DNA from: Planctomycetaceae bacterium
GTDB taxonomy: Bacteria > Planctomycetota > Planctomycetia > Planctomycetales > Planctomycetaceae
Assembly (NCBI GenBank): GCA_019636285.1
Contig: JAHBXV010000005.1
Location: 62,001 to 126,000, forward strand
Reading direction: 5' to 3'
Length of the DNA: 64,000 nucleotides
In this document: positions 11,759-46,148 of the stretch, one piece after another
Position numbering within the stretch: position 1 is the stretch's first letter
How the letters are laid out: each line of letters starts with the position of its first letter
Program-made: the position numbers and the translations under genes
Notes under the pieces: model-generated
Database searches by the model: none
The model's input: only the letters and a program-made list of their open reading frames with translations
Told to the model about the DNA's origin: nothing

Positions 11759-13600
11759 ATGATCGGGCAAAGTTTGCCGGGCCGACGTACTGGAAGCGCG
11801 GCACGACGAGACAGAGCGTGTCACTTGGTGCGCGGCATCATGCTGGGGGTTCTTGCGGGGCTGCCAATCGGACTATTTGCCGAAGAGCCACATCGCAGCC
11901 CGGTGGCCGTAGCTGTTCGACCGGGAACGACCGAGGCGTTGACAGCCAACTCCACCGCCGGCAGCGTGAGCTGGATCGACTGGTCGTCCGGAAAAATTAT
12001 TCAGGAGTTGACTGTCGGAAGTCGTCCCTGGGACGTGAAGTGGCTCAACGCCAACCGGGCGATTGTCGCCCTGGCCGACGCCGATCAAGTGGCTCTTCTG
12101 ATCTGGCCAGATTCGAAGGGCCAGATCCAACGGAAGATCATCGACATTGGCGATGAGCCCTCGGCCCTCGCGATCGGCCCACGCGAAGGAATCGCCTACG
12201 TCGCGCTGACCGGGACCGATGAAGTTATCGAACTCGACACGGGAACCGGGAACGTCTTGAGACGTTTTGCGACCGGCGGACTGCCGCGCAGCGTCGCGAT
12301 CTCACCCAATGGCAACTGGCTGATCACCTGTTCGAACGTCCCCGGTGAAGTGACCGTCCACGACCTTGCGACCGGAGAGCTGCTCAGCCGCCGCAAGATT
12401 TTCGACGATGGATTCAACCTGGGTCATCCCGCCATCACGGCCGATTCCAGCAAGTTGATTCTCCCGCACATCGTCAATCGGGGCTTCGCGGTCACTCGGG
12501 GCAACATCGAAATCGGCTGGGTGCTCGACAATCGCGTGACGCGGCTGCCGCTGCCTGCTGGCGAAAAGGCCGATCAACAGCAGATGGGACTCGACATTCG
12601 TCACGATGCCGTCGGAGACGTTCATCAGGCTCTGTTGAACTCCGACGAAACCCAACTGGTGGTTTCGGCCTCGGGGACGCATGAACTGCTCGTTCTGCGG
12701 TTTCAGGACATTCCCTGGCCCCCCGGAGATTCGGGAGATTTTGCCCCGAAGGAACTTCGCAACGCGCCCGACCGTTATCGGCGGATCAAGCTCGGCGGGC
12801 GACCGCTGGGAATTGCGTGGGAGTCTCCCACATCGCTGTTGGTGGCGAATGGCCATCGCGATTCCATCCAGGTTGTCGACTTGACGAACGACACAGTTGC
12901 AAGAGAAATCGCCCTTGGCGGACCGGCGACACCATCGCCCGCGCGCCTGGGAGAAATGGTGTTCACCGACGCCGACTGGTCGCTGCATAGCTGGTATAGC
13001 TGCCAGACGTGTCACCCGAGCGGCGGAACGGCGGGACAGATCTTCGACACTCGGAATGACGGCGGCTATGGGCTTCCCAAGCTCATCCCGCCGCTGACCG
13101 GAGTCGCGCAAACCGGCCCCTGGACGTGGCATGGCTGGCAGAAAGACCTGACCGCTGCCATGAAAGTCTCTCTCGAAGAAAGCATGTCGACCACGCGGAA
13201 GATTACCGACCACGAGGCGGAAGTTCTGGTCGCCTACCTCGAGACACTCAAGCCTCCGGTCAGCCCGCATCGTCAGCAGGATGGATCACTCACGCCGCTG
13301 GCGGAAGCCGGCCGCGAACTGTTCGTGGGCAAGGCCGCCTGCGCGGACTGCCATGCCGGAGACACCTTCACGACCGACGATGTCTTTCGCGTCGGCCTGG
13401 AAGGCCCTCGCGACCGCTACAAGGGCTACAACCCGCCGTCGCTGCGCGGCTTGCATGCCCGTCGCAGGTTCCTACACGACGGCCGTGCCCGTTCGGTGGA
13501 AGAAGTTCTTCGCGAGTGGCACAAGCCGGAAGAGTTGAACGGCGCGGCCCTCACCGATGACGAGCGGGAGGCGTTGGTTGCTTATCTCAAGTCGCTGTAG
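11759..13600 (+). CDS. Secreted beta-propeller protein with C-terminal di-heme cytochrome c peroxidase/MauG-like domain
   Basis: The 613-residue product starts at an ATG preceded by GAGGG seven bases away. A signal peptide ends near residue 41 (IMLGVLAGLPIGLFAEEP). Residues ~45-390 are YVTN/lactonase-type beta-propeller repeats (VAVRPGTTEALTANSTAGSVS; RSVAISPNGNWLITC). The C-terminal part has two c-type heme sites, CQTCH at 415-419 and CADCH at 528-532, plus the block NPPSLRGLHARRRFLHDG that is typical of bacterial di-heme peroxidase/MauG enzymes. It would act in the periplasm, probably in electron transfer or heme-based oxidation. It heads a co-directional run of cytochrome and CRTAC1/UnbV genes. 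The substrate is unknown. Confidence 0.86.
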   Translation: MIGQSLPGRRTGSAARRDRACHLVRGIMLGVLAGLPIGLFAEEPHRSPVAVAVRPGTTEALTANSTAGSVSWIDWSSGKIIQELTVGSRPWDVKWLNANRAIVALADADQVALLIWPDSKGQIQRKIIDIGDEPSALAIGPREGIAYVALTGTDEVIELDTGTGNVLRRFATGGLPRSVAISPNGNWLITCSNVPGEVTVHDLATGELLSRRKIFDDGFNLGHPAITADSSKLILPHIVNRGFAVTRGNIEIGWVLDNRVTRLPLPAGEKADQQQMGLDIRHDAVGDVHQALLNSDETQLVVSASGTHELLVLRFQDIPWPPGDSGDFAPKELRNAPDRYRRIKLGGRPLGIAWESPTSLLVANGHRDSIQVVDLTNDTVAREIALGGPATPSPARLGEMVFTDADWSLHSWYSCQTCHPSGGTAGQIFDTRNDGGYGLPKLIPPLTGVAQTGPWTWHGWQKDLTAAMKVSLEESMSTTRKITDHEAEVLVAYLETLKPPVSPHRQQDGSLTPLAEAGRELFVGKAACADCHAGDTFTTDDVFRVGLEGPRDRYKGYNPPSLRGLHARRRFLHDGRARSVEEVLREWHKPEELNGAALTDDEREALVAYLKSL

Positions 13601-13731
13601 CGAAGCGTTCAAAGCGTCCTGGGCAGGGTATTTCGCTGAGATCCGTGAAGTCCTCGCAGCGTTTTTCCGCATTACCGGTTTCCGACTCGTGACTCCGTCG
13701 AACTCTCGTTTCGTCAGCAAAGACATGCTCC

Positions 13732-16700
13732 ATGAATCGCCTCTCGACTGCCGTGGCGGCGGTGACTATCGCCATTCTTCTCGCGGGCGTCGGCGTCATG
13801 TTCTGGACGGCAAGGCCGCAACCCGACGCTCCGGAAGTCAAGTTCACGGAAGAGGACACACGACGACTGTTCACGGCCCGCGACAAGGCTTTGGCGAACC
13901 TGGAGAATGAAGCCTTCGCACCCGCCCTGGAGTACTGCCGCGAACTGACGACGGCGTTTCCGGATGATCCGTTCGGATGGTGCAACGGAGCCATTGCCCG
14001 TCACCTGGCCTTGATGGCCGGAAACCCCGAAGACTGCCGCGCGGGTCAGCCGAAACGGATGGAGTTCGACGAGGCGATCGCGGAATGGCGGCGCGTGGCA
14101 CCAAAAGCCGCAGGGCCGCATCTGCTGCTTGCTCGGGTCATGGAATACGGCGGCGACTCCCGCGCGGCCTTGTTCGAAGTGAACGAGGGGTTGCAAGCAT
14201 CGCCCGACAATCTCCCCCTCTGGATGGAAAAAGCGTCCATCGCGGGAGCGACCGGCGACGCGGCACTCGAGGAAGCCCGCATCAACGCTCTCGAAGAGGC
14301 ATTCCGCATCGATCCCGAGAATCTGTCGCTCTTGACCGAGCTTCTGCCCGCGCTGGCCCAGGCCAAGCGACCGTCGTTCGTGGAAGCCGTCACGCGGGCG
14401 CGAGAACTCCTCAAACCGTTCGCGGAAAGCCTTCAGGTTCATCATCGCATCGATGTTCAAGATCGACTGGCGCAGGCAGCAACTGCGGCCGCGAATGAAG
14501 AATGGCCGAAGGCCCGAGTCTTGGTGCTCCCCGTCTGTAATGTTCTGCGCCCGGAACCGCTGGTGCAGGCCGATCAGCGCCGCCTGCGGCCCAACGCGCT
14601 AGAGTTCGTGACGTTCGACCTGCTCCCCGAGTCGCTCGAAGAGCTACCCCCGTTGCCCGTGCCGGCGCCAATTGCCGTCACCTTCGATAAAACCGCCGCT
14701 CCGTTCGAAGGAGTCGAGAATCTTCGCGACTGGGTTGTCCGGGACGTGAACCTTGATGGCCAGCCCGATGTGCTGGCGCTCACCGCCGAGGGGCTCCAAA
14801 CCATCACGGCGACGGCGGAGAAAACTTGGCAAGCCAATCCGGTCGTCGCTGTTGACGGAGATTTCTCCAGCATTCTCTCTGCCGACCTGGACGACGACGT
14901 TCAGGCCATTGAGGGAGCGGTTGCGGCGGAGCGGCCTCCGGGACGATGCCACGAAGCCGATAGCGATGCAATTCTGTTCGGACCGGCGGGGCTGCTCTTG
15001 GTCGCGAACAATTTTCGTGGTGGTCAACTCGCGTGGGAGGCGAAGCCAGCAGCCTTCATCGATCGCGAAGCCAGTCCGGTGACGGCTGCCGCACTGGTTG
15101 ATCTCGATCACGACGGCGATTTAGATGTCGCTGCGGTTTCTGAAAACGGGCTGGAGCTTTGGTCGAACCGGGGAAACCTCGAATTTGTATCGATTGTTGA
15201 CCGGGCTGCGCTCCCTCCCGCTGACTGGACGATCGGCGGGCTGCAAGTGGTCGACTGGGATCGCGACCTTGATCTGGACCTGATCCTTTTCGGACCTCAG
15301 GGATTGGGTCTGCTGGAAAACGTCCGACATGGGCGGTTTCGCTTTCGACAGCTTGACAACCTGCCCATCGAGCCGGGGCCTATCCGGGCGTGTATCGTTG
15401 CCGAGTTGAACGGCGATGCTTCGTGGGACTTGTTGATCGCCACGGAAGAACGATCCCATGTCGTACTGACGGGAACCACGGCACCTGGCTCGGTCGTGTT
15501 CCGCGAAGCCATCGCCGCGCCGGCTGCTGCGAACCGGTTTCTGACGTTGGACTACGACAACGACGGCTGGGTCGATGTGTTGTGCGAGACGCCGAAAGGC
15601 TGGTCCGTCTGGCGAGGACTGGGGACGGGGCACTTCGAAGCCGGTTCCGTCCTCATGGCCGAGGATGTTGGCCAACCGCTGCTGGTCGACCTTGATGGAG
15701 ACAACGATCTCGACGTCCTGTTGGCGGGAGATGGTCAATCGACTCTTCGCGTGAACAACGGCGGCAGCGCGAACGACGTCATTGAGATTGCCCTGCGGGC
15801 GCAGCAGATTGTCGGCAATCAGCAGTCGGCGAGCGGTCGCGTGAATCATTTGGGGATTGGATCGCTCGTCGAACTGAAGGCGGGAGGGCTGTACCAGGCA
15901 CAACTTGTCAGTGGGCCGACGGTCCGGTTCGGCGTGGGAAAACGAACGGCCGACGCAGCGCGGGTTGTCTGGACGAATGGGATTCCCCGCAACCTGCTCT
16001 CGCCGACTCCCAATGAACTGATCTGCGAAGAGCAGACGCTCAAGGGGTCTTGTCCTTATTTGTATACCTGGAACGGCAATCAATTTGTCTTCTGCACCGA
16101 CCTGTTGTGGGCGGCTCCGCTGGGGCTGAAGTTCGCGGAAGACTTTGTCGCACCGTGGCGGAACTGGGAGCATCTGAAGATTGACGGACGGCACGTGCAA
16201 GCGGTCGATGGCGAGTATCGCCTGCGCGTGACGGAAGAACTGTGGGAAGCCGCTTACTTCGATCAGATCGAACTGACCGTGGTCGACCATCCGACTGGAA
16301 CGGTGATTGAAACCAACGAAAAGGTGGGACCAGCCGAACTTGCCGCGCCCCGGCTGCATGTCTACCGCGACGCCAAAAAGCCGATTTCCGCGACGACGAA
16401 AGATGGTCGCGACGTTCTGGCAGAAGTTCTGCAAGCAGACGATGTCTACGCGAGACCCTGGACGATGAAGTTCCGGCAGGGACTGACGGACGAGCATTGG
16501 CTGGAACTCGCTTTTCTCCCTGTAGGCGAAACGAAGTCGCTCAAGTTACTGCTGACGGGCTGGGTCTATCCGAGCGATACGTCGATCAATGTCGCGCTTT
16601 CACAGAATCCGGACCTGCCCTCTCCTGAACCGCCATCACTCTGGATTCCCGCGGCTGACGGAACGTGGGAGAACCGCGTACCGTTTCTCGGGTTCCCGGG

Positions 16701-17319
16701 AGGCAAAACCAAGACGATCGTGGTCGATGTCAGCGACGTTGTTTCGCGCGAGGATCCGCGACTGCGGATTCGCTCGACCATGCAGTTTGCCTGGGATGCG
16801 GCTGCCCTCCTCGTTGATGAAGAGCCCATCGAAGTTCGCGAAGTGGTAGCACCCCTGAAAGTCGCCAACCTGAGGTATCGCGGCGTCTCGGCTCGCGACC
16901 AGCATCCGCAATACGGCCCCGAGCGGCCCAATTACTCGCGGGTGCTGACGGGCGATCATTGGCCACCCATGACGGGGCCGTTCACCGAATACGGAGATGC
17001 GCTGGATCTGCTCGCCGAGCACGATGATCGCCTGGTGATGATGGCAGCCGGGGACGAGTTGGAACTGGTCTTCACTGCTCCACCCCCACCGCCGGACGGT
17101 TGGACACGCGACTTTGTTCTCAAAAGCGTGGGTTGGGACAAAGACGCCGACATGAACACGGTTTACGGCGAAGGTTCGCTGCCGGTTCCGTGGTCGGCCA
17201 TGGAGATTGGCGAACCCGAGCAGCGGTTCTCCGAACCGGAACGGTCGTATCGGTCGGATCGACTGACGCGGTTCCCCGTGCGGGCGAGATTCTGGAATGC
17301 GTTGGCGCGGGAACAGTAG
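13732..17319 (+). CDS. Large extracytoplasmic TPR / FG-GAP / UnbV-like protein
   Basis: The 1195-residue product has an N-terminal membrane anchor or uncleaved signal (VAAVTIAILLAGVGVMFW). TPR-like helical repeats occupy about residues 45-260. From ~310 to ~700 come FG-GAP/VCBS-like repeats with calcium-binding-type Asp loops (DVNLDGQPDVLAL, DLDHDGDLDVAAV, DYDNDGWVDVLC, DLDGDNDLDVLLAG). An UnbV/ASPIC-like segment follows (GSLVELKAGGLYQAQLVSG... RFGVGKRTADAARVVW). The C-terminal ~430 residues (from CPYLYTWNGNQFVF) are a conserved-looking region I cannot name. It therefore resembles an enlarged CRTAC1 protein and sits two genes before a five-heme cytochrome and three before a canonical CRTAC1/UnbV protein. 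It is probably an envelope-bound binding or scaffold protein. The ribosome site is weak. Confidence 0.82.
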   Translation: MNRLSTAVAAVTIAILLAGVGVMFWTARPQPDAPEVKFTEEDTRRLFTARDKALANLENEAFAPALEYCRELTTAFPDDPFGWCNGAIARHLALMAGNPEDCRAGQPKRMEFDEAIAEWRRVAPKAAGPHLLLARVMEYGGDSRAALFEVNEGLQASPDNLPLWMEKASIAGATGDAALEEARINALEEAFRIDPENLSLLTELLPALAQAKRPSFVEAVTRARELLKPFAESLQVHHRIDVQDRLAQAATAAANEEWPKARVLVLPVCNVLRPEPLVQADQRRLRPNALEFVTFDLLPESLEELPPLPVPAPIAVTFDKTAAPFEGVENLRDWVVRDVNLDGQPDVLALTAEGLQTITATAEKTWQANPVVAVDGDFSSILSADLDDDVQAIEGAVAAERPPGRCHEADSDAILFGPAGLLLVANNFRGGQLAWEAKPAAFIDREASPVTAAALVDLDHDGDLDVAAVSENGLELWSNRGNLEFVSIVDRAALPPADWTIGGLQVVDWDRDLDLDLILFGPQGLGLLENVRHGRFRFRQLDNLPIEPGPIRACIVAELNGDASWDLLIATEERSHVVLTGTTAPGSVVFREAIAAPAAANRFLTLDYDNDGWVDVLCETPKGWSVWRGLGTGHFEAGSVLMAEDVGQPLLVDLDGDNDLDVLLAGDGQSTLRVNNGGSANDVIEIALRAQQIVGNQQSASGRVNHLGIGSLVELKAGGLYQAQLVSGPTVRFGVGKRTADAARVVWTNGIPRNLLSPTPNELICEEQTLKGSCPYLYTWNGNQFVFCTDLLWAAPLGLKFAEDFVAPWRNWEHLKIDGRHVQAVDGEYRLRVTEELWEAAYFDQIELTVVDHPTGTVIETNEKVGPAELAAPRLHVYRDAKKPISATTKDGRDVLAEVLQADDVYARPWTMKFRQGLTDEHWLELAFLPVGETKSLKLLLTGWVYPSDTSINVALSQNPDLPSPEPPSLWIPAADGTWENRVPFLGFPGGKTKTIVVDVSDVVSREDPRLRIRSTMQFAWDAAALLVDEEPIEVREVVAPLKVANLRYRGVSARDQHPQYGPERPNYSRVLTGDHWPPMTGPFTEYGDALDLLAEHDDRLVMMAAGDELELVFTAPPPPPDGWTRDFVLKSVGWDKDADMNTVYGEGSLPVPWSAMEIGEPEQRFSEPERSYRSDRLTRFPVRARFWNALAREQ

Positions 17320-17421
17320 GTGGCGGAAAGCCGAGAGCGGAAAGCTGAGAGCCAGCAAAGAATTGCTTGGATATCTTTCTGGCTCGCAGCTTTTTGGCTT
17401 TCCGCTTTCCGCTCTTCCACC
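17320..17421. repeat. Dispersed palindromic element, family GCGGAAAGC (copy 1)
   Basis: Directly after the stop codon at 17317-17319 the DNA forms a long imperfect inverted repeat: GGTGG...GCGGAAAGC...GAGAGCCAG on the left and CTGGCTCGCAGC...TTCCGCTTTCCGCTC...CCACC on the right. The stretch around 17335-17364 (GAGCGGAAAGC, GAGAGCCAG, CAAAGAAT) recurs with few changes at 46841-46870. Confidence 0.75.
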
Positions 17422-17481
17422 GTATTGACGTTCGGGAAACCGGAAGTCTAGACTTCTTAGTATCTCGTTGATTTCCCGCCC

Positions 17482-17910
17482 ATGAGTGTCGCCGTGTTGT
17501 CCGCACTGACTCGCCGCTGGCTTGTTCAGGCAGCCCGCCTGCCGGCGGCGATGCTGTTGGCTGTCGGTTTGAGCGCCTCGGTCGCAGAGGCCACCTGCGG
17601 CGACTATCTCATCAGCCACGACGATTCAACGGCCACTCACGAGATGTCCCCCAGCGGTTCTTCAGAATCGCTTCCCGGCGTTCCACGCTGTTCGGGACCG
17701 TTTTGTTCGCGTGGACCGTTCGAGCCGATTCCCGCTGATCCCGTTCACCTCGAAGTCGAAGTTGGACGTTTCGCGCAGCTTTCGTCCCCGCGCGATGACG
17801 TGGCGCTGACTTCCCAGGATCGACTGTGCCATCCCAACGGATTGCCGGTCCCGTTCACAATCGCCGACCGTCTCGATCGTCCACCTCGCCTGCACGCCTG
17901 GATTGCCTGA
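17482..17910 (+). CDS. Small secreted protein of unknown function in the cytochrome/CRTAC1 block
   Basis: The 142-residue product has a twin-Arg-containing, hydrophobic N-terminus (LTRRWLVQAARLPAAMLLAVGLSASVAEA) that looks like a signal peptide cut near residue 37. The mature part carries four cysteines, including a CSGPFCSRGPFEPIP motif, and otherwise is Pro/Ser/Asp-rich with no fold I recognise. It lies between the TPR/FG-GAP gene and the five-heme cytochrome on the same strand, 96 bases before the cytochrome's start, so a shared transcript is plausible. Whether it assists heme proteins is speculation. No strong ribosome site is seen. Confidence 0.6.
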   Translation: MSVAVLSALTRRWLVQAARLPAAMLLAVGLSASVAEATCGDYLISHDDSTATHEMSPSGSSESLPGVPRCSGPFCSRGPFEPIPADPVHLEVEVGRFAQLSSPRDDVALTSQDRLCHPNGLPVPFTIADRLDRPPRLHAWIA

Positions 17911-18006
17911 CGCGGTTGTCGTCTGCCGCGACGCTTTTCGCGGCTTCCCGTGCATTCCCGTGTATGCGTTTTGGCCACCCCGTCCAGTGGCCGAGGTGAG
18001 ACGTCC

Positions 18007-20823
18007 ATGTCGGTTGAATCTGGTGTTCCGTCCCCGTCGCCGCCCCCGCGGCGCGCCTATGTTCCCGCGATCGGCCCCAAGTTGCGGTGGCTGTTGTGGG
18101 TGGTGTTCGGTCTCGTGGGTCTCATTGGGGCCAACTCCGTCTACCTGGCGGCGGTCACCTTTCTGGAATGGCGCGACTCCGCCACCTACCAGGAATGGTT
18201 CTACCTGATGATGTTCCTGGGCCACTTGGTACTGGGACTGGTCCTCGCGGTGCCGTTTCTGATCTTCGCGGGCATCCACATGTGGAATACCCGCAATCGA
18301 AAGAACAAGCGCGTCTTGCGGGTGGGTTACGCGCTGTTCGCGGTCTCGCTGGTTGTTTTCATCAGCGGCCTGATGCTCGTGCGTGTCGGCTCATTTGATC
18401 TCCGCAATGCCACCACCCGTTCCATCGTTTACTGGCTTCACGTGGCGGCTCCGCTGGTCTGCCTGTGGCTGTATGGCATTCATCGCCTGGCGGGGCCACG
18501 CATCAAGTGGCGCGTGGGTCTCGTCTATGGACTGGCGGTGCTGGGAGTCACTGGCGGATTGATCGCCATGCACAACCAGGATCCGCGCACGTGGAATGCC
18601 ATCGCCCCCCAAGCCGGGGCGAAATACTTCGAGCCTTCGCTGGCCCGGACCGCGACGGGCAACTTCATTCCAGCGGACGTCCTGATGGCGGACGACTATT
18701 GCCTCAAATGCCACAAGGACGCCTACGAGGGCTGGTTCCACAGTTCTCACCACTTCAGTTCGTTCAACAACCCCGCTTACCTGGCGAGCGTGCGGGAAAC
18801 ACGCGAGGTGGCGCTGAAGCGGGATGGCAACGTGCAAGCGTCCCGCTGGTGTGCGGGTTGCCACGACCCCGCCCCGTTCTTCAGCGGAGCGTTCGACGAC
18901 CCCAAGTTTGATGACGTCAACCATACGACGTCGCAAGCAGGCATTACCTGCACGACCTGCCATTCGATCGTTCACGTCAACAGCACGCGCGGCAATGCCG
19001 ACTTCATCATCGAGGAACCGCAGCACTATCCGTTCGCGTTCAGCGACAACTCCGCCTTGCAGTGGATCAGCAATCAACTGGTCAAGGCGAAGCCGGCGAT
19101 GCACAAGAAGACGTTCCTCAAGGATTTCCATAAGTCAGCCGAGTTCTGCTCGACCTGCCACAAAGTCCATATCCCCGGCGCATTGAACCACTACAAGGAG
19201 TTTCTGCGGGGGCAGAACCATTACGACACGTACCTGCTCAGCGGGGTTTCCGGCCATGGCGCGCGGAGTTTTTATTATCCCGAGAAGGCCGTCGACAACT
19301 GCGCGAAGTGCCACATGCCCCTCGCGGAGAGCGGCGACTTTGGGGCGAAGAACTTCGACGGAGCCGAGAAGCCCAGCATTCACAGCCATCTGTTCCCCTC
19401 AGCGAATACGGGGATTGCCTGGTGGAAGAACTTGCCGAATGTCGTCGACGCGCATCGTGAGTTTTTGCGGGAAAAGCTCCGGGTCGACATCTTTGCCCTG
19501 CACGATGGGGACGACATTGATGCCCCGCTGACGGCTCCGCTGCGGCCGACAGTTCCGACGCTGACTCCGGGCAAGTCGTACGTGCTCGACACGGTCGTCC
19601 GCACGCTCAAGATGGGCCATCCCTTCTCGCAGGGGACCGTCGATTCCAACGAAATCTGGCTGGATGTCACGCTGACCAGCGGCGGCAAGGTCATTGGCCG
19701 CAGCGGCGCCATCGATGAAGGTGGGCACGTCGATCCCTGGTCGCACTTCATCAACGTCTTCATGCTCGACCGCGAAGGAAACCGCATTGACCGGCGGAAT
19801 CCGCAGGACATTTTTGTTCCGCTCTACAACCACCAGATTCCGCCGGGAGCTGCCGCGACGGTGCACTACGGCTTCCAGCTTCCGGACGACGTGACCGAGC
19901 CAGTCACGATCGAGGTCAAGTTGCAATACCGCAAGTTCGACCAGACGTATCTCGACTTCATCGCGCGTACGGCCAAGCCGGGCGATCATCCGATTCGCGG
20001 CCATGAACCGGGTAAGCCGTATATCAACCCGCTGCCGATTGTCACGATGTGCTCGGATACCATCACGCTTCCCGTCGCCGGGAGCACGACCGAAGTCAAG
20101 AACCCCGATAGCAAAATCCCGTTGTGGCAGCGATGGAATGATTACGGAATCGGCCTACTTCTGAAAGGCAAAGCGGAGTTGGCACAGGCGGGAGCCGCGT
20201 TCGAGAAGGTGGAAGAGCTTAAGCGCTTCGACGGTCCGCTGAACCTGGCGCGGGTCTATTACGCGGAAGGACGCCTCGACGATGCGACGGCGGCCCTGAA
20301 TCGCGCTCTTGCGCATACCGATCCTCCCGCCCCGCCGTGGACAGTCGCCTGGCTGACCGGCTCGGTCAATCGGGAGCAGGGGAATCTGGAGGAAGCGGAA
20401 GCCAATTTCCGCAAGGTACTGGAAGACAAGACGCCCGAGATGATCGAGCGCGGATTCGACTTCAGCCTCGACATCGAAGTCCGCAACCTGCTCGGTTTGA
20501 CGTTGTTCGATCGAGCCCGGCAGATGCGCGGATCGGATCGGGCCGACGATCGCAAGGCCCTATTGGAAGAAGCGGTTCGACAGTTCCAGAAGACGCTGGA
20601 CGTCGATTCCGAAGACGTCACCGCGCATTATCAGCTGCAACTGCTGTATGCCCAGTTGGGAGACCAGGAGAAGTCAAAGGACCATCGCGAGCTGCATGCC
20701 CGCTATAAGGTGGATGACAACGCCCGCGACAAGGCCGTGGCGGCGGCTCGGAAGAAGTACCCTGCTGGCAATCGTGCCGCCGAGGCGATTGTCATTTACC
20801 GTCTCAACAAAGTAACACCCTAG
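18007..20823 (+). CDS. Membrane-anchored five-heme cytochrome c with C-terminal TPR domain
   Basis: The 938-residue product begins with about five membrane helices (residues ~25-185; LLWVVFGLVGLIGANSVYLA, LVVFISGLMLVRVG and others). A periplasmic multiheme region follows with five c-type heme sites: CLKCH (232), CAGCH (282), CTTCH (315), CSTCH (381) and CAKCH (432). Extra distal His residues (HSSHHFSSF) are typical of bis-His multiheme proteins. Residues ~490-670 are beta-rich, and from ~690 on TPR-like helices run to the C-terminus. The GAGGTGA site eight bases upstream supports the ATG at 18007. It would pass electrons between the quinone pool and periplasmic partners. Its stop codon TAG lies in a dispersed repeat. 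Confidence 0.88.
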   Translation: MSVESGVPSPSPPPRRAYVPAIGPKLRWLLWVVFGLVGLIGANSVYLAAVTFLEWRDSATYQEWFYLMMFLGHLVLGLVLAVPFLIFAGIHMWNTRNRKNKRVLRVGYALFAVSLVVFISGLMLVRVGSFDLRNATTRSIVYWLHVAAPLVCLWLYGIHRLAGPRIKWRVGLVYGLAVLGVTGGLIAMHNQDPRTWNAIAPQAGAKYFEPSLARTATGNFIPADVLMADDYCLKCHKDAYEGWFHSSHHFSSFNNPAYLASVRETREVALKRDGNVQASRWCAGCHDPAPFFSGAFDDPKFDDVNHTTSQAGITCTTCHSIVHVNSTRGNADFIIEEPQHYPFAFSDNSALQWISNQLVKAKPAMHKKTFLKDFHKSAEFCSTCHKVHIPGALNHYKEFLRGQNHYDTYLLSGVSGHGARSFYYPEKAVDNCAKCHMPLAESGDFGAKNFDGAEKPSIHSHLFPSANTGIAWWKNLPNVVDAHREFLREKLRVDIFALHDGDDIDAPLTAPLRPTVPTLTPGKSYVLDTVVRTLKMGHPFSQGTVDSNEIWLDVTLTSGGKVIGRSGAIDEGGHVDPWSHFINVFMLDREGNRIDRRNPQDIFVPLYNHQIPPGAAATVHYGFQLPDDVTEPVTIEVKLQYRKFDQTYLDFIARTAKPGDHPIRGHEPGKPYINPLPIVTMCSDTITLPVAGSTTEVKNPDSKIPLWQRWNDYGIGLLLKGKAELAQAGAAFEKVEELKRFDGPLNLARVYYAEGRLDDATAALNRALAHTDPPAPPWTVAWLTGSVNREQGNLEEAEANFRKVLEDKTPEMIERGFDFSLDIEVRNLLGLTLFDRARQMRGSDRADDRKALLEEAVRQFQKTLDVDSEDVTAHYQLQLLYAQLGDQEKSKDHRELHARYKVDDNARDKAVAAARKKYPAGNRAAEAIVIYRLNKVTP

Positions 20824-20951
20824 TGTTTCGTCAATGTCCAAGATTCGGGCGTGTGCCACTGGCTCCGCCAGTGCATATTTTTATGGATGAAAGGCTTAAG
20901 ACGCACTGGCGGAGCCAGTGGCACACGAAAATCAAGCCTTGATAGAACACT
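20822..20951 (+). repeat. Dispersed ~130-bp palindromic element, family CCACTGGCTCCGCCAGTG (copy 1)
   Basis: Two 24-bp arms (20851-20874 and 20903-20926) are exact reverse complements. Each arm is itself a small hairpin, CACTGGC-TCC-GCCAGTG. The outermost bases AGTGTT (20822-20827) and AACACT (20946-20951) form a six-base terminal inverted repeat. The left end overlaps the TAG stop of the five-heme cytochrome gene. A second copy, inverted, is at 46021-46148. Confidence 0.88.
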
Positions 20952-20965
20952 GGTCTCAGTTCTGA

Positions 20966-22834
20966 ATGGTCCCTGTTTCCGAGCCGGCGAAAGCGAGTAT
21001 GCCCGAGATGTCCAACGGTCCTTCCGAAGAACCCGACGATTCGATTGTCGGCCGCGCGCTGGCCTGGTCGCTGGGACTCGTGGCAGTGGTTGGCGGCGCG
21101 GCGGCCCTCGTCTGGCTGCTCTTGCCCGCTCCGCCCAAGCCCGAGACACGGCAGGCGGACGTTGTTCCCCCCACCGTTCGCGAGCGGACGACAGTCCCGC
21201 TTCCGAAGATCCCCTTTGTCGACGTCACGACCAGTTCGGGCATCAACTATCGCCACGAGAACGGCGCCGCGGGTGAAAAGTTGCTCCCGGAAACCATGGG
21301 GGGCGGACTGGCGATGTTCGATCCCGATGGCGACGGCGACAACGATCTGTTGTTCGTCAATTCGCAGCGCTGGACCTGGGACACTCGTCCAGCGGATAAG
21401 CCAGCCACGCTCGCCTTCTTTCGCAACGATGGCAAAGGCCAGTTCGAGAACGCCACGGCAGAAGTGGGTCTGGACGTCTCGATGTATGGCCAAGGCTGCG
21501 CGGTGGGAGACTACGACAACGATGGCGACGATGATCTCTACATCACCGCCGTCGGCGCGAATCGCCTCTTCCGCAACGACGGGGGGAAATTCATCGACGT
21601 GACCGGCGAAACCGGCACGGCCGGCGGCGCGACCGACTGGAGCACGAGCGCCGGCTGGTTCGATTACGACCGCGATGGCGATCTCGACCTGTTCGTCTGC
21701 AACTACGTGCAATGGTCGCGCGAGTTCGATGTCGCGCAGGAATTTCGCCTGTTGGGGGGTGGCCGCGCGTATGGTCGGCCGCAGAACTTCGCGGGTGCAT
21801 TTCCCAAACTGTTCCGGAACGACGGCGGCACATTCAGCGATGTGACCGAAGCAGCCGGGCTGATGGTGAAGAACCCTGCCACCGGCGTTCCGGTCGCCAA
21901 GTCGCTGGGGGTCACGTTTGTCGATGTCGACGAAGACGGCTGGCTGGACATCATCGTCGCGAACGACACCGTGCAGAACCTGCTGTTCCGTAATCGTCAG
22001 AATGGAACATTCGAGGAACAGGGAGCCATTGCGGGGCTGGCATTCGACAATAGCGGCAACGCCCGCGGGGCGATGGGTATCGACGCGGCCCGCTTTCGCC
22101 CGAATGGCGACCTCGGCATCGCGATCGGTAACTTCGCCAATGAAATGACCGCGCTGTATGTCACCCCCGCCAAGATTGCTCAGTTTACGGATGAAGCGAT
22201 TTCATCGGGTCTCGGTCCGCAAACGCGACTGGAACTGACGTTTGGCGTCTCGTTCGGCGACTTCGACCTCGACGGACGGCTTGATCTGGTCGCCGCGAAC
22301 GGCCATCTCGAAGAAGACATTCACAAGGTGCAGGAAAGCCAGTTCTACGAACAACCGCCACAGTTCTTCTGGAACGCGGGAGCCGATCAGGCAACCGAAT
22401 TCGTCCCGCTCGGGCCGGTGCAGCTCGGCGAAGACTTCGGGCGTCGTTTGGTTGGTCGCGGCCTTGTGGTGGGCGATCTCGACGGTGATGGCGACCTGGA
22501 TGTGGTGATTGGCACCACAGGACGCGAACCGCGGGTGTTGCGAAACGATCAGTCGCTCGGCCATCACTGGTTGCGACTGCGCCTGGTGGGAACGGAATCG
22601 AATCGCTCGGCGATTGGAGCCGAAGTCGAACTCAAAAGTGGCGATGTGGTTCAGCGAGCCACGGTGATGCCGACGCACAGCTATCTCTCGCAGTCCGAAC
22701 GCATCGTCACTTTCGGACTGGGTGAGTCCACTACGGTCGATTCAGTGACGATCCGCTGGCCGAACGGATTGGTTCAGGAGCTGAAGTCCCCTGAAATTGA
22801 TCGCGTCGTCGAAGTGACCGAGCCGACTCGCTAG
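20966..22834 (+). CDS. CRTAC1/UnbV family extracytoplasmic protein (FG-GAP/VCBS repeats, ASPIC/UnbV domain)
   Basis: The 622-residue product has an N-terminal anchor helix (RALAWSLGLVAVVGGAAALVWLLL, ~residues 30-53). A signature CRTAC1 start follows (PFVDVTTSSGINYRHENGA..KLLPETMGGGLAMFDPDGDGDNDLLFV). FG-GAP/VCBS repeats with Asp-rich metal loops run to ~520 (DYDNDGDDDLYIT, DYDRDGDLDLFVC, DVDEDGWLDIIV, DLDGDGDLDVVIG). The C-terminal ASPIC/UnbV domain (SAIGAEVELKSGDVVQRATVMPTHSYLSQSERIVTFGLG) ends the protein. Ribosome sites are poor for ATG 20966, 20999 and 21008 alike, so the exact start is open. It closes the cytochrome block and probably binds carbohydrate or metal at the envelope; no enzymatic activity is established. 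Confidence 0.88.
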   Translation: MVPVSEPAKASMPEMSNGPSEEPDDSIVGRALAWSLGLVAVVGGAAALVWLLLPAPPKPETRQADVVPPTVRERTTVPLPKIPFVDVTTSSGINYRHENGAAGEKLLPETMGGGLAMFDPDGDGDNDLLFVNSQRWTWDTRPADKPATLAFFRNDGKGQFENATAEVGLDVSMYGQGCAVGDYDNDGDDDLYITAVGANRLFRNDGGKFIDVTGETGTAGGATDWSTSAGWFDYDRDGDLDLFVCNYVQWSREFDVAQEFRLLGGGRAYGRPQNFAGAFPKLFRNDGGTFSDVTEAAGLMVKNPATGVPVAKSLGVTFVDVDEDGWLDIIVANDTVQNLLFRNRQNGTFEEQGAIAGLAFDNSGNARGAMGIDAARFRPNGDLGIAIGNFANEMTALYVTPAKIAQFTDEAISSGLGPQTRLELTFGVSFGDFDLDGRLDLVAANGHLEEDIHKVQESQFYEQPPQFFWNAGADQATEFVPLGPVQLGEDFGRRLVGRGLVVGDLDGDGDLDVVIGTTGREPRVLRNDQSLGHHWLRLRLVGTESNRSAIGAEVELKSGDVVQRATVMPTHSYLSQSERIVTFGLGESTTVDSVTIRWPNGLVQELKSPEIDRVVEVTEPTR

Positions 22835-46022: not shown

Positions 46023-46148
46023 TGTTTTGCCACGGCTTGATGTTCGTGTGCCACTGGCTCTGCCAGTGCGTCTTAAGTATTGTCCATAACAAGATACACT
46101 GGCGGAGCCAGTGGCACACGTTCGGATCTTTCACATTGAGAGTGCATT
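46021..46148 (-). repeat. Dispersed ~130-bp palindromic element, family CCACTGGCTCCGCCAGTG (copy 2, inverted)
   Basis: The reverse complement aligns with 20822-20951 over its whole length, including the 24-base arm (46046-46069), the second arm (46097-46119), CTTAAGACGCACTGGC at the centre, ATCAAGCC, AACACT at one end and TCAATGT near the other. As in copy 1, TAGTGTTT supplies the stop codon of the preceding gene. It fills the gap between two convergent genes. Confidence 0.88.

Follow-up and report, generated by a model that had tools for sequence, protein, structure and literature searches.

We analyzed a 64,000-nucleotide stretch of a Planctomycetaceae bacterium genome (assembly GCA_019636285.1, contig JAHBXV010000005.1, positions 62,001 to 126,000; hereafter the window, G000:C59:62001-126000 within a genome of 6.37 Mb and 113 contigs, G000), concentrating on five consecutive plus-strand genes, P1 to P5, which a previous sequence-only reading had described as a single extracytoplasmic module (Table 1). 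The five open reading frames (ORFs) lie where that reading had placed them, with intervening gaps of 131, 162, 39 and 142 bp, and encode proteins of 613, 1195, 142, 957 and 622 amino acids (aa), respectively. All five gene products are exported or membrane-anchored, and the reported count of c-type heme (CxxCH) motifs, two in P1 and five in P4, is correct. The module itself stands in part: P2-P3-P4-P5 is a conserved set, whereas P1 is unlinked and independently distributed.

Table 1. Genes and intergenic elements of the locus; positions are counted from the first nucleotide of the window.
Feature	Position	Strand	Description
P1	11759..13600	+	YVTN-type beta-propeller with di-heme CCP/MauG-like C-terminus, hydrazine synthase beta-gamma-like, exported; judged a non-member
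P2	13732..17319	+	Giant 1195-aa tetratricopeptide repeat (TPR)/FG-GAP/UnbV protein with novel all-beta C-terminus
Hairpin P2/P3	17322..17410	.	Long, near-perfect; possible terminator or repeat element
P3	17482..17910	+	Small secreted protein; motif set AxA|[ST]CGD[YW], CxGPxC, C-terminal RPP[RQ]
P4	18007..20823 (ORF opens at GTG 17950)	+	Inner-membrane cytochrome: five transmembrane helices holding two predicted bis-His sites for heme b, then five hemes c, a beta-sandwich and TPRs at the C-terminus
Inverted repeat P4/P5	20850..20927	.	Dispersed, 25-bp arms
P5	20966..22834	+	CRTAC1/UnbV protein, N-terminal membrane anchor
P6	22890..23333	+	147-aa membrane protein 3' of P5

The P2-P3-P4-P5 set is real, being gained and lost together in planctomycetes and, in part, in Verrucomicrobia. 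We searched for P1, P2, P4 and P5 in 58 related genomes spanning many genera and seven families. P2, P4 and P5 are all present in 35 of these relatives and all absent from 19; the remaining four lack one member, and three of those four assemblies are 79-88% complete. Co-occurrence yields Fisher p-values of 1e-11 to 1e-13, which ignore phylogeny; since families f1, f3 and f5 each contain a mixture of genomes with and without the genes, a single ancestral event is insufficient to explain the pattern. Orthologs of P2 occur in 37 of the 58 relatives. Across the phylum (293 other genomes), full-length P4 was detected in 45 genomes, all 45 of which carry P2, and when P4 of any length is counted, 73 genomes encode both proteins, 6 P4 alone, 24 P2 alone and 190 neither. 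Named genomes with P4 belong to the Planctomycetaceae, the Pirellulaceae (Schlesneria, Rhodopirellula, Stieleria, Roseimaritima) and the Verrucomicrobia.

Gene order provides a second line of evidence. Scanning genome contigs with the P4 alignment identified at least 507 encoding stretches, of which the best 80 were kept as P4 loci; because some of them come from genomes of the relatives (e.g. L183, G054), the two sets are not fully independent. P5 lies directly 3' of P4 in 63 of these 80 loci, and in 53 of the 62 that offer at least 2.5 kb of room. The pairing extends to distant planctomycete families, in which P4 adjoins a P5-type CRTAC1 gene in 14 of 19 loci; the adjacent gene has a hidden Markov model score of 490-630, against about 180-200 for other CRTAC1 genes of the same locus. 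P5 is thus a near-obligate partner of P4. P2 is found in 15 of the 80 loci and adjoins P4-P5 in independent lineages. The order P2-P3-P4-P5 appears in L149, L160 and L202, and therefore the window's own arrangement recurs elsewhere; it is also seen in L161, where a gene encoding an NHL propeller follows P5. Further orders are P2-NHL-P4-P5 (L139, L146, L167, L170, L172), P4-P5-NHL-P2 (L183 and one contig of G024) and, in a Limisphaerales contig, P4-P5-P2 (L192). P2-P3-P4-P5, P2-NHL-P4-P5 and P4-P5-NHL-P2 are each met with again in different lineages.

The NHL-propeller protein, of about 285 aa, is a real member of the set that the earlier reading overlooked. Its gene is a recurrent neighbor of P2 or P4 (13 of the 80 P4 loci), sits between P5 and P2 or between P2 and P4 in several genomes, and is confined to set-positive genomes among the 58 relatives (0/19 negatives); the copy in the window's genome is on another contig (G000:C55:6061-6822). 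P3 carries a signal peptide and has no match in Pfam. Among 111 partly redundant loci that leave space for it, 52 encode a P3-type protein directly 5' of P4, and the CxGPxC motif is exact in 40 of 52 motif-bearing proteins; none was seen in Verrucomicrobia P4 loci. The suggestion that P6 might be a sixth member holds among close relatives, with a relative 3' of P5 in L076 (37% identity) and L127, and fails beyond these. Scattering of the genes in related genomes, which the earlier reading had taken as grounds for abandoning the module, presents a mixed picture: they are often dispersed, yet they are inherited together.

Residue numbers for P4 are counted here from the GTG at 17950 (957 aa) unless otherwise stated, but the better start is the ATG at 18007, preceded by GAGGTGAG, which yields a 938-aa protein, widens the P3-P4 gap to 96 bp and coincides with the onset of conservation. 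P4 comprises a Cytochrome_C554 domain, exactly five CxxCH motifs, TPRs and five predicted transmembrane helices, with a PF13435 score of 32.7 bits (cut-off 20.8). The AlphaFold2 model (mean predicted local distance difference test, pLDDT, 86) also contains five transmembrane helices, the second of which carries His73/91 and the fourth His145/159 (938-aa numbering). Conservation was assessed on an alignment of 35 orthologs, later extended to 55 sequences by adding 20 very divergent ones. All five CxxCH motifs are kept in 55/55 sequences, and the transmembrane histidines H92, H110, H164 and H178, which form H-x17-H and H-x13-H pairs, in 54-55 of 55. P4 therefore has, on sequence grounds, the two transmembrane His pairs expected of CbcL/HydC-like diheme b proteins, with H92-H164 and H110-H178 as the likely outer and inner heme b sites. 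The positive-inside pattern of its loops suggests a cytoplasmic N-terminus and an outward-facing heme domain.

Four further histidines (H267, H385, H480, H557) are invariant in the 55 sequences, whereas at position 424 the 35 closer proteins have His and the 20 distant proteins an acidic residue (Glu or Asp). Of the five hemes c, at least four have a conserved extra His available; most are therefore probably bis-His electron-transfer hemes, and the distant group may have one open heme. An impression that distant P4 homologs lack the b domain proved wrong: the profile match starts late, and the transmembrane helices and all four histidines are present. Cytochrome b561 (PF01292) matches 4 of 13 P4 transmembrane domains, at best with 1.3e-4, and TIGR02125 matches 1 of 32 members; the window's P4 is matched by neither, and its transmembrane domain has no match among PDB sequences. 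The four invariant histidines and the weak b561 matches make the electron exchange with quinones contemplated by the earlier reading plausible. Our best reading of P4, from sequence and model, is that of a predicted quinone-linked b2c5 electron-transfer protein, which would constitute a new architecture of inner-membrane b/c cytochrome.

Both CRTAC1/UnbV-like assignments made from the sequence are borne out. P5 contains FG-GAP repeats (FG-GAP_3, 6e-34, 116.9 bits) and UnbV_ASPIC (3e-20, 72.3 bits), both above the Pfam cut-off. In P2, an N-terminal hydrophobic helix precedes TPRs (40-302), an FG-GAP propeller (~317-690; 6e-24), an UnbV segment (~710-765) and a beta C-terminus (~770-1140); UnbV falls below threshold in this protein and is found in 32 of 34 P2 orthologs. 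The AlphaFold2 model of P2 (pLDDT 87) reproduces this layout: a helix at the N-terminus leads into a TPR superhelix and a propeller of FG-GAP type with seven blades, followed by UnbV and a C-terminal part rich in beta structure. The best Foldseek match of the model is murine CRTAC1 (9etn, 9.4e-15), followed by GlcNAc-binding fungal lectins and aldos-2-ulose dehydratase. The C-terminal ~430 aa, which the earlier reading could not name, opens with a conserved GSCPYLYTWNG..F.F.TD.LW.APLGL and receives no Pfam or PDB assignment at either the sequence or the fold level. P5 and the core of P2 hence share with murine CRTAC1 the seven-bladed FG-GAP propeller and UnbV/ASPIC; unlike CRTAC1, P2 adds the N-terminal TPR array and the beta-rich C-terminus, and the bacterial proteins possess a membrane anchor and share their inheritance with a cytochrome.

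We propose, with a probability of roughly 0.5, that P2-P3-P4-P5 and the NHL gene encode an extracytoplasmic electron-transfer system of Planctomycetes-Verrucomicrobia-Chlamydiae (PVC) superphylum bacteria. P4 would be an inner-membrane protein whose two b-type hemes, one above the other, span the bilayer and whose five c-type hemes face outward, an arrangement that would let electrons move from the quinone pool to the periplasm or back. P5, the CRTAC1/UnbV propeller, would dock onto the TPR domain at the C-terminus of P4, with P2 and the NHL protein serving as further propeller or TPR scaffolds of the P4-P5 assembly and P3 as the small secreted cysteine protein of the system. P4 would thereby exchange electrons with a CRTAC1/UnbV assembly outside the cytoplasm, and we slightly favor quinol oxidation as the direction. 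The foundation of the proposal is computational observation (co-inheritance, deep P4-P5 pairing, conserved heme and His ligands), from which we infer heme b occupancy, quinone reaction, TPR docking and direction of electron flow. We found no description of the P2-P5 set in the open literature, subscription literature not being covered, nor any paper there that assigns a function to the bacterial CRTAC1/UnbV family. This family is widespread and multi-copy, and for CRTAC1, its animal relative, the structure is solved but the role poorly understood; near-perfect co-inheritance with a predicted quinone-linked cytochrome is a first functional lead for the bacterial relatives of human CRTAC1.

Several observations weigh against the electron-transfer proposal. 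No redox cofactor motif is found in P2, P5 or the NHL protein. The cytochrome b561 matches are weak and confined to a minority of P4 members, and Foldseek of the P4 model returned TPR folds only (e.g. MamA), which is uninformative for the membrane part. Strong hairpins separate P2 from P3 and P4 from P5 in the window's genome, and the genes are dispersed in most relatives, as judged from P2 and P4 loci, P4 and P5 usually remaining adjacent. Four P4 loci of family f64, among the exceptions to the pairing in distant families, have no P5 beside P4 (L248, L249, L251, L253). Finally, P2 occurs without P4 in 24 genomes of the phylum, which points to a role of P2 beyond P4 and beyond electron transfer. 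Distant P2 genes without P4 show no recurrent redox partner; their neighbors vary, with a nitrilase-like gene in some.

Two observations on neighboring genes belong here. In L248 and L253, P4 is followed by two other genes (~340-370 and 480-490 aa) that may be alternative partners. In five class-level genomes (L064, L065, L068, L071, L074), P2 is closely preceded by a nitrilase-superfamily gene in the same orientation, and a similar-looking one is found 3' of P2 in a distant genome (L216).

The set also tracks the size of the wider CRTAC1/UnbV family. Using the Pfam UnbV model, we counted a median of 10 UnbV genes (minimum 3) in relatives with P4 and of 0 in those without it. All 97 P2-positive genomes of the phylum carry at least 3 (median about 9), as opposed to a median of 0 in phylum genomes lacking both P2 and P4; as a further caution for the proposal, these counts include P2 and P5 (two by construction) and may partly follow genome size. 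The 3-Mb genomes of family f22 show the same trend. The module probably serves the cell's wider CRTAC1/UnbV family, whose size rises with it. A bolder version, which we consider doubtful, makes the entire bacterial CRTAC1/UnbV family dependent on an unrecognized redox system that has P2, P4, P5 and the NHL protein at its core; P4 would then be the electron hub through which UnbV-TPR proteins of the cell envelope perform or undergo an electron-dependent reaction. If true, this would give this widespread family a redox function. The notion of P4 as exclusive hub for all UnbV genes is weakened by the 24 P2-positive phylum genomes without P4, which are equally UnbV-rich. The window's genome has 12 UnbV genes, and others outside the locus adjoin probable TPR proteins, not cytochromes (C63, C53, C13, C62, C73; L205-L208, L211). 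Several of these CRTAC1/UnbV-TPR pairs lie near pseudopilin-like (FTLIELLVVIAIIAIL) ORFs, and a seven-heme cytochrome ORF is located near one of them (L207, 11076-12248).

The same data bear on the main rival explanation, which we judge unlikely while regarding it as the strongest competitor: that P2, P5 and the NHL protein act in the periplasm as scaffolds or chaperones for building or anchoring the many UnbV-TPR proteins, with the electrons of P4 feeding a maturation step (thiol or cytochrome). UnbV copy number follows P2 even without P4, the other CRTAC1 genes of the window's genome are paired with TPR proteins, the CcmH/CycH TPR profile matches 22 of 34 P2 orthologs and P3 has conserved cysteines, all of which this assembly role would accommodate. 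Matches to TPR profiles are generic, however, and domain searches of the members detected nothing like thioredoxin or DsbD and no protease domain. Seven predicted hemes in P4 moreover exceed what thiol reduction needs.

A less probable alternative places P4 in a branch of extracellular electron transfer, as a quinol oxidase whose electrons would travel on to acceptors outside the cell, humics or metals for example, while the UnbV propellers would act as binding proteins at the surface. CbcL fuses a b-type membrane domain to a multiheme c domain, and P4 appears to do likewise. The architecture of P4 is comparable to that of the quinol oxidoreductases CbcL and ImcH (reviewed in PMC6295460): like CbcL/MtrH/MtoC and ImcH, it is a predicted inner-membrane multiheme c cytochrome with possible quinone exchange. 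Pfam MtrC/MtrF-like heme domains are also found in 23 of 32 P4 proteins, at E-values up to 1. Unlike these proteins, P4 has an N-terminal membrane domain, five hemes c, a beta-sandwich, a TPR tail and a CRTAC1 partner, and extracellular-conduit genes are missing from its vicinity, with no porin-cytochrome conduit or outer-membrane multiheme gene recurring beside P4. Rhodopirellula-type organisms, to which several P4 carriers belong, are aerobic heterotrophs, and this too counts against an extracellular branch. Clusters of a large porin and eight-heme cytochromes have been described in freshwater Verrucomicrobia (PMC5615132); with the quinol oxidoreductases above they are the kinds of described system nearest to the P4 set, and they too comprise multiheme cytochrome genes of PVC bacteria that have no assigned role, but the P4 set has no porin and presents instead a b-type membrane domain, CRTAC1 and TPR proteins.

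The five-gene oxidative-modification machine of the sequence-only reading, with P1 as MauG- or peroxidase-like catalyst, is very improbable in view of how P1 is distributed. P1 does have CQTCH and CADCH heme motifs, a CCP_MauG match (3.9e-12) and the reported NPPSLRGL...FLHDG block, and it lies directly 5' of P2 on the same strand. NCBIfam TTQ_mauG, however, reaches 46.6 bits on P1, below its equivalog cut-off of 443.85, and P1 occurs in 12 of 37 relatives with P4 and in 6 of 21 without it. Its presence is independent of both P4 and P2 (12/6/25/15, p = 1, among the 58 relatives), and it is found in none of the 80 P4 loci (the best 80 of at least 507 stretches). In 17 P1 ortholog neighborhoods we identified no second gene family in common, save small groups among close relatives, and none of the other genes of the window. 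P1 is hence unlinked in every other genome examined and is an unrelated neighbor of the P2-P5 set, and with its membership gone an oxidative modification of MauG type is unsupported. That P1 is incidental narrows what to test.

Chance clustering of unrelated secreted genes holds for P1 and is scarcely credible for P2-P5. Large intergenic gaps, hairpins and the dispersal of the genes in many relatives would fit such an account, but near-perfect co-occurrence and recurring gene orders argue against it. The gaps, the ~89-nt hairpin between P2 and P3 (RNA fold of 17320-17420, -56.4 kcal/mol) and the inverted repeat between P4 and P5 mean that a single transcript is not established. This repeat, GTGCCACTGGCTCCGCCAGTGC...GCACTGGCGGAGCCAGTGGCAC (20850-20927), is dispersed, with a further copy near 46049-46117 and 274 half-sites in the genome versus 0 for a control pattern; its sequence is possibly that of a mobile or terminator element resembling repetitive extragenic palindromes. 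Promoter and terminator scans gave counts at or below those of shuffled sequence and were thus uninformative.

Least credible of all is a hydrazine synthase (HZS)-like complex. P1 resembles HZS gamma (1.1e-17) and HZS beta (3.3e-14), and other bacteria have CRTAC1 genes next to their HZS homologs (PMC12758564). This reading was rejected on the absence of the HZS-alpha domain (PF18582) from the window's genome and on the key residues of P1: in an alignment with 5c2v_C, a Trp stands opposite gamma-His144 and no residue opposite gamma-Cys165, two HZS positions discussed in PMC12758564. NCBIfam hydrazine_BC gives 92.9 bits on P1, short of its cut-off of 1250. Together with the unlinked neighborhoods, the wrong key residues and the missing HZS-alpha lead us to regard P1 as an incidental neighbor. 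In the open literature, PMC12758564 alone links CRTAC1 genes with multiheme cytochromes in planctomycetes, in an HZS context. Its HZS homolog clusters (clades I-III) combine, as the present locus does, multiheme and propeller/di-heme genes with a neighboring FG-GAP gene of CRTAC1 type, and P1 itself is HZS beta-gamma-like; they differ in that the window's genome is devoid of HZS-alpha, the cytochrome P4 is of another kind and contains a membrane domain, and P1 is unlinked to the set. In one genome (L066, G045:C1:2601000-2620900), about 4 kb separate the gene for a P2 giant from a group made up of a CRTAC1 gene, an HZS-alpha domain (2621648) and an HZS beta-gamma-like gene, and this P2 thus adjoins an HZS-homolog cluster of the type reported in PMC12758564.

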